The notes beneath the pieces were generated by a model. That model was not told the DNA's origin, did not search any database, and was given only the letters and a program-made list of their open reading frames with translations. DNA of 64,000 nucleotides from Cyanobacteria bacterium SIG26 (GTDB taxonomy: Bacteria > Cyanobacteriota > Vampirovibrionia > Gastranaerophilales > Gastranaerophilaceae), in assembly GCA_015152555.1 (NCBI GenBank), contig SUTS01000001.1, positions 124,001 through 188,000 of the forward strand, written 5' to 3'. The translations under genes and the position numbers were made by a program. Positions 52,480 through 57,372 of this stretch are shown piece after piece; within the stretch, counting starts at the first letter, position 1, and each line of letters starts with the position of its first letter.

Positions 52480-52569
52480 TGGCAGAGGGGATGGGATTCG
52501 AACCCACGGTGAAGTTTCCCTCACACAACCTTTCCAAGATTGCACCTTAAGCCACTCGGACACCCCTCT
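52480..52569 (-). tRNA. tRNA-Ser (GGA)
   Basis: 90 bases on the minus strand with encoded CCA. The acceptor stem is AGAGGGG/CCCCTCT, discriminator G. The anticodon stem-loop is CAATC-TTGGAAA-GGTTG (anticodon GGA). A long variable arm (TGAGGGAAACTTCA) and T arm GTTCGAATC are typical of class II tRNA-Ser. Confidence 0.97.
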
Positions 52570-52651: not shown

Positions 52652-52855
52652 CTAATTATCCTTTAAATGTTGTTGTTCGTCAAGTTCTAATATTTCAGAT
52701 TGATAATATTCCTCCGTACGCTCAATTGAATGAATCTTCGCATCTGCAAGCCGCTCTAATACTTTTGCATAATCTAAGCACTTCCGGCCTTTTATACCCT
52801 CGGTATCCATTTGTATCGTTCCATCCGGTAATAGTTTTATTTTTATTTTACCCAT
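52652..52855 (-). CDS. DUF2997-like small protein
   Basis: Product of 67 residues: GKIKIKLLPDGTIQMDTEGIKGRKCLDYAKVLERL. A beta-hairpin with P-D-G-T-I-x-x-x-T-x-G-x-x-G-x-x-C and a helix follow. This is the DUF2997 pattern ('I-x-x-x-G-x-G-x-x-C-x-x-x-x-x-x-L-E') known from cyanobacterial gene neighbourhoods with DUF1257 and Ycf46. Its function is unknown, and a single conserved Cys (about 26) is notable. It is the last gene of the minus-strand operon, 11 bp after the DUF1257-like gene. Confidence 0.7.
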   Translation of the reverse strand: MGKIKIKLLPDGTIQMDTEGIKGRKCLDYAKVLERLADAKIHSIERTEEYYQSEILELDEQQHLKDN

Positions 52856-52866
52856 CTTTTAACTTT

Positions 52867-54129
52867 TTACACCTCTATCGTTAAAACAATCGAATTATCT
52901 TCCATCACAACTTCACTCTCTAACCGCATATTCTCCTGCTCTAAACGTTCTTTTATTTTATTATAAGTCATCTCCTGAATATTCAAACCATATTCATCAT
53001 TCAAATCATTAATCAAATCCTCACATTGTGACGTATCAGAAACCTGCGTAATATCTAATGTATAACCTTCTGAACCATCTTTTTTATAATAAACCATCTC
53101 CATTCCAAACAATTTACAAGAGATTTCTTCACTACTTTCTACAAGTTCCTGAGCACCGTGTTCAGTTAATGTATTCAGTAAGATACCCTTATCTGTGTAG
53201 TTTGTTTTATAAGTATAAACAGTAGTTATAACATCTTCCACCAATCGCAAATCACGTCCTGCAACCATATTCAGTTTCCGAAAAATAATTTCTGCTTCCT
53301 TGGTAATTGCAGAATTATTATCTCCCGAGAATTCAGCAATATATTTACCGTCTTTCAATACCCAATTCAATGTAGCACGAGTGTTTTTTAACGGAGTCTG
53401 TGAATTCCCCTCATAAAAAAGATAATTTGTCTGATTTAACAAGCCTTTCAACTCACTTTGCTTTATATTAGTTTGAATTTTCAAATTCGTTAAGCCACAA
53501 GATACATTGCGTCCCTGCGCCTTGTTAGTCAAGCCTATATTAAGAATACGGACCTGCTGTTCGACTTCTAACATATAATTTTGCGAATTTGGCTGTCTGA
53601 AATATTTAATACTTTGATCATTCAGATTTGCAACAATCTCAGCATCCTCAGTAGAAAAAATTTGAACTGCACCTTCTGATTTTAATTTTTCATATATTTC
53701 TGCAGGATTTTGATAACTTGTTTCATATATAAAATAAAAATACTCATTGGATTCGATAAGTCGAACATTACGGCCGGTAATTTCATCTAATTGTTCGAAA
53801 AGTTTTTCTCCAAACAACTGTAAATTCTCGGCACTATTAGCCCCAGACAAATGAGCAATTAAATATTTACCGCTATTTTGCCAATCAACCTTTAAACCCG
53901 TAGGTAAATAATACGAATTCTTCTGAATTAATGCACAATCAACCTGAGACATCAAAGCCGAAATTTCATCAAATTCAATATTTGTAAGCACTCGAATTGA
54001 TTTTAAACTTTGAGAACTCTCTCTTTTTATAGGACTGGAAACTTCTGTAGCACGTTGCAGTTTTTCATTTTTTGCATCTTGCGGATTCAATAAAAACGCC
54101 ATCGGATATGCCATCAATGTAATCGACAT
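52867..54129 (-). CDS. DUF1257/Ycf35-like protein, enlarged
   Basis: Product of 420 residues. The C-terminus has GMEMVYYKKDGSEGYTLDITQ, YNKIKERLEQENMRLESEVVMEDNSIVLTIEV. The helix with Y-N-K-x-x-x-x-x-x-x-Q followed by E-D-N-S-I-x-L-x-(V/I) is the DUF1257 (Ycf35) ending. The family is usually about 120-130 residues. Here about 300 residues precede it and contain at least two copies of a similar alpha/beta unit (LKVDWQNSGKYLIAHLSGANSAENLQLF and LNWVLKDGKYIAEFSGDNNSAITKEAEIIF; both then R-D/N-x-R-L-x-E). No signal peptide. Next to the Ycf46-like ATPase, as usual for the family. Function unknown. Confidence 0.65.
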   Translation of the reverse strand: MSITLMAYPMAFLLNPQDAKNEKLQRATEVSSPIKRESSQSLKSIRVLTNIEFDEISALMSQVDCALIQKNSYYLPTGLKVDWQNSGKYLIAHLSGANSAENLQLFGEKLFEQLDEITGRNVRLIESNEYFYFIYETSYQNPAEIYEKLKSEGAVQIFSTEDAEIVANLNDQSIKYFRQPNSQNYMLEVEQQVRILNIGLTNKAQGRNVSCGLTNLKIQTNIKQSELKGLLNQTNYLFYEGNSQTPLKNTRATLNWVLKDGKYIAEFSGDNNSAITKEAEIIFRKLNMVAGRDLRLVEDVITTVYTYKTNYTDKGILLNTLTEHGAQELVESSEEISCKLFGMEMVYYKKDGSEGYTLDITQVSDTSQCEDLINDLNDEYGLNIQEMTYNKIKERLEQENMRLESEVVMEDNSIVLTIEV

Positions 54130-54147
54130 TATTTAAATCTCCCAACT

Positions 54148-55779
54148 CTAAACATCTAATGCTCGTCCGCCACGAGAAGTATTAACATCATCCTCATTTA
54201 CATCACCCGTAGAGTATTGCGCCATATCGTCTTTTTTTGTTGCTGTAACAGCACGCACATTTGCCCATTGACGCAATGCTAAAATTTGCTCTTTTTGAGT
54301 AACAGACAATGGTACAATATTTTTTATTGTATTTTCTAAATCTGCAAACTCCAACGGTCGTTTATTGAAAAATGCCTCATAAAGCGCAGTAATTACAACC
54401 TGTTCAATTTCCGCACCAACAAAACCTTCAGTCATCTGTGCTAACTTCTCATACAAAGTCTCACTTATTTCTAATTTACTTGCAACATCTTTATCTTTAA
54501 GTCGTTTTGACAGATGAAGTTTGAAAATTTCTTTACGTTCGCGTAACGTAGGTAAATCAACAAAGAAAATTTCATCAAAACGACCTTTTCGCAACAATTC
54601 TGCAGGCAAACTACTAATATTATTAGCAGTAGCAATAACAAATACAGGAGCAGTTTTTTCTTGCATCCAAGTTAAAAAAGTACCGAAAATTCTTGAGGAA
54701 GTTCCACTATCACCATTTGACCCTGACCCCATACCACTTAAACTTTTTTCAATTTCATCAACCCATAGAATTGATGGGGCAACAGCTTCAGCAGTTTTAA
54801 TTGCTTTGCGCATATTTTCTTCAGAACTACCGACAAGTCCGGAAAATATTTTACCAAAGTCCAACTTTAAAAGCGGCAATTGCCAAGCTGCACTCATCGC
54901 CTTTGCAGTCAAACTTTTACCGCAACCCGGAACACCTGTTATTAACACACCTTTTGGAGCCGGCAAGCAGTATTTCTTGGCAGACTCTGACCAAGAGTTA
55001 TTGCGTTTATTTAACCAATTTTTTAAATTTTCTAATCCGCCGACATCCGAAATTTTAATATCGGTATTGATAAACTCAAGGATACCGGTCTTTTTAATAA
55101 CTTGCATTTTTTCGGCTAATATAACAGATAAATCTTTGCCATCAATTTTACCATCATTTACCATTGAAAGCGCGAATGCATTTTCTGCCTCTTGTAAAGT
55201 TAGACCTAATGCGGCCTTACATAAACGTTCCTTACCGTCTTCATCTAAATCAGTTGTATCAATTTGGTTATTCTGAGAAACCATCTTATCCAATTTCGCT
55301 CTAATTTCTTCCAATGTCGGTAACGGCATATCTAAAATGGTAACCTCTTTTTGCATTGATTCAGGAATTAAAAGCTCTGATGCTAAAAAAATCACATTTT
55401 TACGATATTTACCGGTTTTTAACTCTCCGATAATATCTCTCAAATGTCTTACGACATTATAATCAACTTGTCTGCCCTTTACTCCAAAGTAAACATGGAA
55501 ATCACACATTATAAAAACTGCATTATTATTACAAGTCTTAATAAAATCAACAGCTTTATCCGGACTATTTGTACCGTCTATTTTCTTACCATTTAAAACA
55601 AACCCGTTTGTTTGTGTCCAAATATAAACATCACGAGGTATTTTAATCAACTTTTCTGATGCTGCAATCCTTTTGATTACGGAAATCGCACGTTCTTCTT
55701 CCCACGTAGTAAGGTAAATATATGGGAATCGCGCTCTAAACAATCTTGATAGTTGTGTAATAATATTATTATTTGTCAT
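54148..55779 (-). CDS. AAA+ ATPase, Ycf46-like
   Basis: Product of about 543 residues from ATG 55779, with AGAGG upstream. The N-terminal domain (about 1-235) opens with LFRARFPYIYLTTWEEERAI, the start typical of Ycf46 ('R-x-P-x-I-Y-L-x-T-x-E-E-E-R'). The AAA module follows DVGGLENLKNWL: Walker A GVPGCGKS (about 282-289), Walker B ILWVDEIEKSL, sensor 1 VFVIATANN, and R-K-G-R-F-D-E-I-F with the arginine finger region. It lacks a protease domain. Ycf46 homologs are encoded in plastids and cyanobacteria and have been connected with photosynthetic carbon use. This genome shows no photosynthesis genes, so the role must be more basic. Central gene of a five-gene operon. Confidence 0.85.
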   Translation of the reverse strand: MTNNNIITQLSRLFRARFPYIYLTTWEEERAISVIKRIAASEKLIKIPRDVYIWTQTNGFVLNGKKIDGTNSPDKAVDFIKTCNNNAVFIMCDFHVYFGVKGRQVDYNVVRHLRDIIGELKTGKYRKNVIFLASELLIPESMQKEVTILDMPLPTLEEIRAKLDKMVSQNNQIDTTDLDEDGKERLCKAALGLTLQEAENAFALSMVNDGKIDGKDLSVILAEKMQVIKKTGILEFINTDIKISDVGGLENLKNWLNKRNNSWSESAKKYCLPAPKGVLITGVPGCGKSLTAKAMSAAWQLPLLKLDFGKIFSGLVGSSEENMRKAIKTAEAVAPSILWVDEIEKSLSGMGSGSNGDSGTSSRIFGTFLTWMQEKTAPVFVIATANNISSLPAELLRKGRFDEIFFVDLPTLRERKEIFKLHLSKRLKDKDVASKLEISETLYEKLAQMTEGFVGAEIEQVVITALYEAFFNKRPLEFADLENTIKNIVPLSVTQKEQILALRQWANVRAVTATKKDDMAQYSTGDVNEDDVNTSRGGRALDV

Positions 55780-55798
55780 AACCAAACCTCTTTTGCCA

Positions 55799-56407
55799 TT
55801 ATTTTACACGATTTTTCCCAAGTTGTAAACAGAAATTCTGTTCAATCTGCGAAAAATCACCCATACCATTAACTTCAAGTCGCCCATCACCAGAAATACG
55901 TGCTTCTATTTTATTTTTATACTTTGAAAGATGCTTCTCACTATATGTATCAGTTAGAAAAATATATCTTTGATTTGACGAACCTACCCAAGGTCTGCTT
56001 AAATCAAACTTATCTTGTTCAAAACCACCATCAATTAATAAATCAATATTTCCCAAGAATTGTCCTACCGCTGTCATTTTATTTGACAATAATTCTTCAT
56101 ACGTATAACCGGTAAAACACAGCACCGATAATCCGTTTGACTTTATATAACGCGCTAATTCCGCAAGTTCGGCAGCTTGTTCAAAAGGTTCCCCGCCTAG
56201 AAATGTTACACCTTCAATATTATCTTTTTCTTGAAGAATCATCTCTAACAAATCTTCTACACTAAATTTATTACCAATACCAAAATCCCAGGTATCTTTT
56301 GCCCAACAACCAATACAATGCTTTTTACAACCCTGCACCCAAATACAAAACCTGACCCCCGGCCCCTCTACTGAAGTATTTTTCAAAATCTTATAAACAT
56401 CAATCAT
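55799..56407 (-). CDS. Radical-SAM 4Fe-4S protein, NrdG-like activase
   Basis: Product of 202 residues with the radical-SAM cluster C27-x3-C31-x2-C34 (GCKKHCIGCW). GPGVRFCIWVQGC before it and GVTFLGGEPFEQAAELAELA (the G-G-E-P motif) after it match anaerobic ribonucleotide-reductase activating proteins (NrdG). There is no nrdD partner here. The gene is coupled to the HHH gene (TAATG overlap) and 19 bp before the AAA gene. It may therefore activate a different glycyl-radical enzyme, or modify something in this operon. Normal length for NrdG is about 150-190. Confidence 0.85.
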   Translation of the reverse strand: MIDVYKILKNTSVEGPGVRFCIWVQGCKKHCIGCWAKDTWDFGIGNKFSVEDLLEMILQEKDNIEGVTFLGGEPFEQAAELAELARYIKSNGLSVLCFTGYTYEELLSNKMTAVGQFLGNIDLLIDGGFEQDKFDLSRPWVGSSNQRYIFLTDTYSEKHLSKYKNKIEARISGDGRLEVNGMGDFSQIEQNFCLQLGKNRVK

Positions 56408-57372
56408 TAAAAATCAACAATCCTGCCTTGATTATCATCATCATTACTTTCTGTCCGGTTTACATCACCTAAATAAATCATTGATTTAATTTTAGTCACA
56501 AAATGAGGCTTTGCACCTAAAACTTCAATAAATTCTTCCTCAGATTTAAAACTCCTATTTTTATTACGATACTCAATAATCTTTTTTGCAATAATTATAT
56601 TTACACTGGGAAGTAATGAAATCTCACTTTCTGTTGCATTATTTATATCAATTTTATTATCCGGATTATTTGACATTTTCGCCATAACAGCACTCATATC
56701 AACCAAAACCTCTGACTTTGATTGAATATTATCAACAGTTTCTTTAACCGGTTTTATATCGTTGATTTCAACAATTTTCTCACCTTCAATATTTGGCTTA
56801 TCAGTACCATCAACAAAAGTATCTTTTTGAATATCACTAATTTCAACATATTTTGGACCAATATTAGAATTATCTATATTAATCCTACGTTCACGTTTTT
56901 TAACTTGAGCAGATGGTGAATCTATACTTATAATATCCACGTCCGTTTCTAAACTAAACAATGCGGCATACGAATCCAATGAAACATACTCATCAAAAAC
57001 TTTACAAATACTGTTCCAATATTTATTAATTTTCCCCTTTTTAATAGTAAACATACGTTTTTTATTATATTGATTTGAATGATTATCCATTATAATAATC
57101 TGCTCATCAGGAGAATACTTTACGGTACAATGCGAATTCCCTATAACATTAGTTCCTTTGACAAATTGTTTTGCAACCAGTTTAATACTATTTTTATTTA
57201 ATTTTTCAACGATAACAGTTCGAAATACTAAAACACAAATTCCGCCTATTACAAATACGAACAACAAAAAATTCGCCAAATCAGGAACATAACTATATGC
57301 CAATATATAGGCAACTACCGCGCCAACATATAAATCAAATCTACCATAAGACATTCTTCTTCTATGCCACAT
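56407..57372 (-). CDS. Membrane protein with helix-hairpin-helix (ComEA-like) domain
   Basis: Product of 321 residues. Two N-terminal membrane segments (about residues 15-50: VGAVVAYILAYSYVP and FLLFVFVIGGICVLVF) are followed by a polar linker and a C-terminal HhH domain. The HhH core reads IDINNATESEISLLPSVNIIIAKKIIEYR and RSFKSEEEFIEVLGAKPHFVTKIKSMI, the same pattern as ComEA. It ends in an acidic tail. The HhH suggests DNA or protein binding at the membrane. Start choice is uncertain (57372 or 57354). It is the first gene of the operon, coupled to the radical-SAM gene, and diverges from aroA. Confidence 0.8.
   Translation of the reverse strand: MWHRRRMSYGRFDLYVGAVVAYILAYSYVPDLANFLLFVFVIGGICVLVFRTVIVEKLNKNSIKLVAKQFVKGTNVIGNSHCTVKYSPDEQIIIMDNHSNQYNKKRMFTIKKGKINKYWNSICKVFDEYVSLDSYAALFSLETDVDIISIDSPSAQVKKRERRINIDNSNIGPKYVEISDIQKDTFVDGTDKPNIEGEKIVEINDIKPVKETVDNIQSKSEVLVDMSAVMAKMSNNPDNKIDINNATESEISLLPSVNIIIAKKIIEYRNKNRSFKSEEEFIEVLGAKPHFVTKIKSMIYLGDVNRTESNDDDNQGRIVDF

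Follow-up and report, generated by a model that had tools for sequence, protein, structure and literature searches.

A five-gene operon whose AAA+ ATPase and helix-hairpin-helix membrane protein share a C-terminal tail

Many cyanobacteria and plastids have kept the proteins Ycf46, DUF1257 and DUF2997, whose function is poorly understood; DUF1257 and DUF2997 are scarcely named in the literature. What do genes of this kind do in Cyanobacteria bacterium SIG26, a gut bacterium of the Gastranaerophilaceae, where they stand in one operon with genes for a radical S-adenosylmethionine (radical-SAM) protein and a helix-hairpin-helix (HhH) protein? We analysed a window of 64,000 nucleotides (contig SUTS01000001.1, positions 124,001 to 188,000) from this 1.86 Mb genome. 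A listing of open reading frames (ORFs) gives five minus-strand genes at window positions 52652-57372, in the order HhH, radical-SAM, AAA+, DUF1257-like and DUF2997. The HhH and radical-SAM genes overlap by one base (TAATG) and the remaining intergenic gaps are 13, 18 and 11 bp, which bears out the spacing described in an earlier note made from the sequence alone. Pfam and NCBIfam profiles confirm four of the five products, namely the HhH, radical-SAM, AAA+ and DUF2997 proteins. The operon is an accessory module that has spread horizontally, and is neither a relic of photosynthesis nor an anaerobic glycyl-radical system.

Conservation and spread of the five-gene operon

Operons of this layout are termed type I, and 31 such loci were sampled in the Gastranaerophilales family. 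Most of them keep the order HhH, radical-SAM, AAA, DUF1257-like, DUF2997. Relatives of the 420-residue DUF1257-like protein occur in 35 of 292 genomes of the phylum, every one of them in the source family, and DUF2997 is found in 179 of the 292, most cyanobacteria included. Four genomes of the same genus (G122, G212, G224 and G277), drawn from the shared sample, contain neither DUF2997 nor the radical-SAM protein of the system and have only weaker homologs. Since the radical-SAM protein is missing from these four genomes without DUF2997, the parts of the module are gained or lost together.

The grouping extends well beyond the source family. Plasmid searches recovered all five genes in Paenarthrobacter and Rhodococcus, in the order AAA, DUF1257-like, DUF2997, HhH, radical-SAM. 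Among the best 80 matches when 84,980 species genomes were scanned and the matches ranked by a Treponema query are loci from an uncultured Clostridia (L173: DUF2997, HhH, radical-SAM, AAA, DUF1257-like) and an uncultured Ruminococcus (HhH, radical-SAM, AAA, DUF1257-like). The five genes therefore recur together in the family, in Clostridia and on actinobacterial plasmids, and are not a peculiarity of the one genome in which the earlier note saw them. Paenarthrobacter and Rhodococcus are aerobes, and the complete sets on their plasmids leave unsupported the anaerobic setting that had been proposed for the system.

We compared 98 AAA sequences, six of them cyanobacterial, in a tree made by a quick method, in which several plasmid and phage rows are long-branched. 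The AAAs of five-gene loci all group in a single clade (SH-aLRT 100), which corresponds to one change on the tree against a mean of 17 after shuffling. This clade unites the source family, gut Bacillota and the actinobacterial plasmids, and all six sampled cyanobacterial AAAs fall outside it. Because a single AAA clade spans loci of different phyla, the module has moved between phyla. The five-gene clade shows that the core can work where there is no photosynthesis, and that it is not limited to anaerobes. The earlier conclusion that the core does not depend on photosynthesis is thus a fair one, but the route by which it was reached was wrong: a cyanobacterial core outliving the loss of photosynthesis finds no support in the position of the clade.

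A 17-kb contig catalogued as viral (L206, IMGVR_UViG_3300018493_003783) also holds a complete type I operon, reflecting either mobile carriage or a misclassified host contig. In the window itself, the DUF2997 gene has a tRNA-Ser gene of its own strand close downstream (52480-52569), a common integration context.

A C-terminal tail shared by the ATPase and the HhH protein

The ATPase ends in ..RGGRALDV and the HhH protein in ..GRIVDF. Both ends follow the pattern [GE]-R-x-hydrophobic-[DE]-hydrophobic-COOH, and this tail, common to two proteins that are otherwise dissimilar, is new here. A census over five-gene loci found the tail on all 44 AAAs and on 47 of 50 HhH proteins by the strict pattern (50 of 50 if a missing last residue is allowed), against 0/42 radical-SAM, 0/46 DUF1257-like and 1/43 DUF2997 proteins. 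Shuffling the last 12 residues of the HhH proteins gave a mean of 0.13 matches, compared with the 47 observed. In the alignment, the linker in front of the HhH tail differs between proteins in both its length and its sequence, unlike the tail itself. Only six of 239 other ORFs match: three Mrr-domain proteins of type II operons, the AAA and HhH proteins of L205 (unlabelled in the census), and one protein of L085. The last of these (L085:6020-6718) has 232 residues, is encoded between the HhH and radical-SAM genes, and ends in DREVDL.

The tail is also specific at the level of whole genomes. A DNA pattern search, which demands an Asp codon and could let Glu variants escape, found five sites in the source genome, and the only ones that form in-frame ORF ends belong to the AAA and HhH genes. 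Every in-frame tail site in a second genome, G037, likewise belongs to an operon gene, of type I or type II. A general client tag is ruled out for the source genome, where the only in-frame tails found are those of operon genes.

The type II operons occupy four Gastranaerophilales loci (L092-L095), and G037 holds both types. Here the genes for DUF2997, radical-SAM and AAA proteins are followed by those for tetratricopeptide repeat (TPR) proteins, DUF1257-like proteins and a membrane protein that contains an Mrr nuclease domain; two of the four Mrr proteins were run against Pfam. The TPR proteins finish in the same HhH-like domain and the same tail, and the Mrr proteins end in GRKLDI, GRRLDI or GKKLDI. 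The Mrr sequences retain GVDII...QCKH, which is compatible with an active site. Because proteins with different domains share the tail, we take it for a docking signal, not for a piece of any domain.

A similar tail is present on viral AAA homologs from IMG/VR, where it occurs in 24 of 80 sequences (shuffled mean 0.34) and in 22 of 65 after redundancy was removed. Since these homologs carry a similar tail, the tail is older than the operon, and the ATPase may be its own receptor for the tail. Other viral AAA homologs (L211, L213, L218-L221, L225-L227 and others) have an acidic ..EDDL/DEDDL end in place of R-x-h-D-h, where h is a hydrophobic residue. Further roles for the tail were considered. 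That it is a glycyl-radical site is ruled out, as the position ahead of the Arg is not constant (G/E and others) and there is no Gly after it. That it is a radical-SAM substrate is weakened by the many tailed AAAs with no radical-SAM gene nearby. Dependence of the tail on DUF1257/DUF2997 was suggested by cellular genomes (17/32 versus 5/29, Fisher p 0.007) and is contradicted by the viral homologs that have no such neighbours.

The DUF1257-like, DUF2997 and HhH proteins

The two DUF labels given by the earlier note fared differently in profile searches. The DUF2997 label is secure: PF11211 matches over its full length at 40.5 bits, against a gathering cut-off of 24.1. Residues G12, G23 and C26 are invariant in 25 sequences from many phyla, and the predicted model is a beta-beta-alpha structure with C26 where the helix begins. 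No fold could be assigned to this model by Foldseek (best E 0.49), and a tblastn search of phages and plasmids gave no match with a query that is too short and diverged.

The DUF1257 label does not hold as family membership and so fails the check that the earlier note itself had set. Pfam DUF1257 (PF06868) has no match to the 420-residue protein at E up to 1, nor to the whole genome at E 0.001. A cyanobacterial Ycf35 profile reaches relatives of the protein transitively, only upon iteration, and hhalign aligns its C-terminal unit with DUF1257 (probability 83, E 8e-6). On these profile comparisons the protein is best described as a distant DUF1257 relative that lies outside the Pfam family. Its AlphaFold model (mean predicted local distance difference test score 81) consists of four small alpha/beta units, in which A+B and C+D represent a tandem duplication; A and B have no sequence similarity to each other. 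The larger size of the protein is thus explained by duplication of a domain pair. Most five-gene DUF1257-like proteins also differ from canonical ones in having a hydrophobic N-terminus (median KD15 1.89 versus 0.79). Searching the PDB by sequence for a structure of the DUF1257 family returned nothing credible. Foldseek with the DUF1257-like model reached E 3e-5 at best with poor TM-scores, and VIA reached Z 8.4 at best (beta2-adaptin appendage) with TBP at about 6-6.7, values near background for such models; we claim no named fold.

Hydropathy shows N-terminal hydrophobic segments in the HhH proteins. Together with the hydrophobic N-terminus of most DUF1257-like proteins, they agree with the ATP-driven, membrane-linked system that had been suggested for the operon. 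The nucleic-acid target suggested alongside it is still possible; weighing against it, the usual DNA-binding G-h-G hairpins are altered in the HhH domain, reading LPSVN and AKPHF in the window instead of LPGIG and GIG. Coordinates of all features are collected in Table 1.

Table 1. Features of the operon and of related type II proteins (window positions unless a locus is given; aa, amino acids)
Feature	Position	Strand	Basis
HhH membrane protein, 321 aa	56407-57372	-	HHH_3 E 5.1e-13; homologs in nearly all five-gene loci
HhH N-terminal hydrophobic segment, residues about 23-59	57196-57306	-	hydropathy peak 2.75
ComEA-like HhH domain, residues 239-297; conserved [PED]H motif replaces second hairpin	56482-56658	-	profile and alignment
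HhH C-terminal tail GRIVDF and stop	56407-56427	-	tail census and genome pattern search
Radical-SAM protein, NrdG-like, 202 aa	55799-56407	-	Fer4_12 2.1e-39; TIGR02491 129.4 bits
Radical-SAM CxxxCxxC cluster motif, C27/C31/C34	56306-56329	-	sequence; family conservation
AAA+ ATPase, Ycf46 type, 545 aa, TTG start	54148-55785	-	AAA 1.1e-28, AAA_lid_3; tree
AAA+ Walker A, GVPGCGKS	54913-54936	-	conserved core in alignment
AAA+ C-terminal tail GGRALDV and stop	54148-54171	-	tail census and genome pattern search
DUF1257-like protein, 420 aa, hydrophobic N-terminus	52867-54129	-	ORF, remote profile links, structure model
DUF1257-like first domain pair (A+B, residues 42-194)	53548-54006	-	model; AB versus CD hhalign E 2.7e-18
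DUF1257-like second domain pair (C+D, residues 213-419), in which unit D is related to DUF1257	52873-53493	-	model and hhalign
DUF2997 protein, 67 aa	52652-52855	-	PF11211 E 2.5e-10; beta-beta-alpha model
DUF2997 invariant Cys26, helix start	52778-52780	-	alignment of 25 sequences
Type II Mrr-domain proteins, membrane-anchored	L092:621-1415, L093:1090-1827, L094:8724-9449, L095:2651-3403		

Proposed mechanism, rival explanations and known systems

We read the operon, with a probability of about one half, as a membrane-tethered AAA+ protein-remodelling module in which partners dock through their tails and the radical-SAM protein modifies or matures a component. The core of the putative complex would be an AAA+ ring with the repeated DUF1257-like protein and DUF2997, and the HhH protein would be its membrane-anchored partner, scaffold or substrate. 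The tail common to ATPase and HhH protein would be a docking motif for one core receptor (candidates are the DUF1257-like protein and the ATPase), such that HhH tails would recruit the ATPase, or be engaged by it, at the membrane, where remodelling would take place. The first candidate for the component modified or matured by the radical-SAM enzyme would be the invariant Cys of DUF2997. Several observations weigh against this reading. No adjacent radical-SAM/HhH pair was found beside the AAA gene at L076 and L078, and in G113 the radical-SAM gene of the system is on another contig. AAAs without a radical-SAM gene are often tailed, so that tail and radical-SAM function need not be linked. Tailed viral AAA homologs mostly have no DUF1257 or DUF2997 nearby, so that the AAA itself, or something different again, may act as receptor.

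The radical-SAM protein lends itself to a different explanation, close to the protein-radical target of the earlier note: as an NrdG it would activate a glycyl-radical enzyme, such as the anaerobic ribonucleotide reductase, which the AAA+ protein would repair or reload. The protein does pass the NrdG cut-off of TIGR02491, if narrowly (129.4 against 126.1 bits), and AAA+ reactivases exist for other enzymes. However, the same genome has nrdD on another contig (C2:28660-30435), immediately followed by a separate nrdG (C2:30477-30884), to which the operon protein is about 35% identical, and related genomes without the module still have nrdD. Glycyl-radical domains (PF01228, PF13597) are absent from the five operon proteins, the matches in the genome being on contigs C2 and C16, and complete modules occur in aerobic actinobacteria. 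We consider this explanation very improbable, and the notion of an NrdG-like activase serving a protein radical finds no support either. The radical-SAM superfamily motifs CxxxCxxC and GGEP are kept in 53 of 54 family members. Because almost all relatives keep them, the operon protein is probably active on another target. Related radical-SAM proteins have AAA neighbours in other settings too, namely within the contractile injection clusters that Spirochaetota carry and on plasmids with a PIN nuclease and an AAA of a different kind, so the radical-SAM/AAA partnership is a recurrent one. The plasmid clusters, from Polaromonas (L201:498-6558) and Acinetobacter (L202:688-6525), encode an AAA domain protein, a PIN protein, a hypothetical protein, a ClpB-like AAA and a radical-SAM protein 37-40% identical to those described here; they are possibly undescribed and defence-like. 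Separately, in a pyruvate formate-lyase-like gene of the source genome (G000:C16:12723-13144), next to a PflA-like gene, the PF01228 domain is divided between two reading frames and has an in-frame TAG, and a similar split is seen in G112.

It is possible, if unlikely, that the operon is a mobile-element or anti-phage module: the AAA+ core would sense or remodel, and tail-bearing membrane or nuclease effectors (HhH in type I; TPR-HhH and Mrr in type II) would be swappable. The patchy presence within a genus, the carriage on plasmids and possibly viruses, the D...QxK-like residues of the tailed, membrane-anchored type II Mrr protein, and a related plasmid radical-SAM gene that adjoins genes for a PIN nuclease, a helicase and a different AAA all favour this. 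Yet PADLOC matched no system in the operon, the IetA profile of IetAS matches the AAA core only and the protease partner IetS is not in the operon, type I has no nuclease, and DUF2997 is present in most sampled cyanobacteria, unlike typical defence genes. The nuclease-domain protein with the same tail suggests a modular system, and it is conceivable, though unlikely, that the tail is a shared address through which one AAA-DUF1257-DUF2997 core commands interchangeable effectors, in an undescribed and horizontally spread system whose core or tail would be switched by radical-SAM modification. Distinctly doubtful is a role in iron-sulphur or redox-stress proteostasis, where the core and an iron-sulphur partner (Fed7 in cyanobacteria, the radical-SAM protein here) would shield proteins, or build them anew, when iron or oxidative stress sets in. 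The cyanobacterial cluster g comprises duf2997, ycf35 and fed7; loss of fed7 makes the mutant sensitive when iron is limiting, and the Fed7 protein has a DnaJ protein as binding partner (PMC4284462). Moreover, ycf35 and ycf46 are kept mostly in marine red algal plastids, in a context where iron is discussed (PMC5940233). The invariant Cys of DUF2997 also fits, as do GrpE and Hsp70 genes directly before those for DUF1257, DUF2997 and AAA on a Pseudanabaena plasmid (L098:2568-8512), which hint at a chaperone link. Against this, the ferredoxin and radical-SAM proteins are unrelated, the analogy is purely positional, and the five-gene clade stands apart from cyanobacterial AAAs. The six-residue tail of the ATPase and its partners offers a first testable molecular handle, in the form of peptides, on a widespread protein group.

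Each component has recognizable counterparts. The HhH protein resembles the ComEA DNA receptor in its N-terminal membrane segment and HHH_3 domain, and differs in a score below the ComEA cut-off (TIGR01259, 36 bits against 152), altered hairpins, a conserved His motif and the C-terminal tail. The radical-SAM protein is like NrdG in size, cluster motif, GGEP and score, but it does not adjoin nrdD, as the separate nrdG does. Cdc48/VCP D2 and classical AAA+ proteins share the AAA core and are the best PDB sequence relatives of the operon AAA, which has its own N-terminal domain, a single AAA core and the R-x-h-[DE]-h tail. Treponema/Spirochaetales contractile injection clusters (L104, L105 and L097) have a similar radical-SAM-AAA pair, with DUF2997 in two of the three loci; they differ in lying amid sheath (PF04984) and tube (PF06841/PF19266) genes, in having no HhH gene that we found, and in a separate AAA branch. 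A further parallel is the cyanobacterial and plastid set of Ycf46, Ycf35 and DUF2997, whose genes for AAA, DUF1257 and DUF2997 co-occur in several cyanobacterial and other loci. The AAA+ proteins are homologous (43% identity to a Pseudanabaena plasmid AAA that neighbours DUF2997 and DUF1257), DUF2997 passes its Pfam profile, and the DUF1257 homology is remote. Beyond this set, the operon has the radical-SAM protein, the membrane HhH protein and the shared tails; its DUF1257-like protein is a duplicated form that starts with a hydrophobic N-terminus, and its AAA falls in a clade apart from the sampled cyanobacterial copies.

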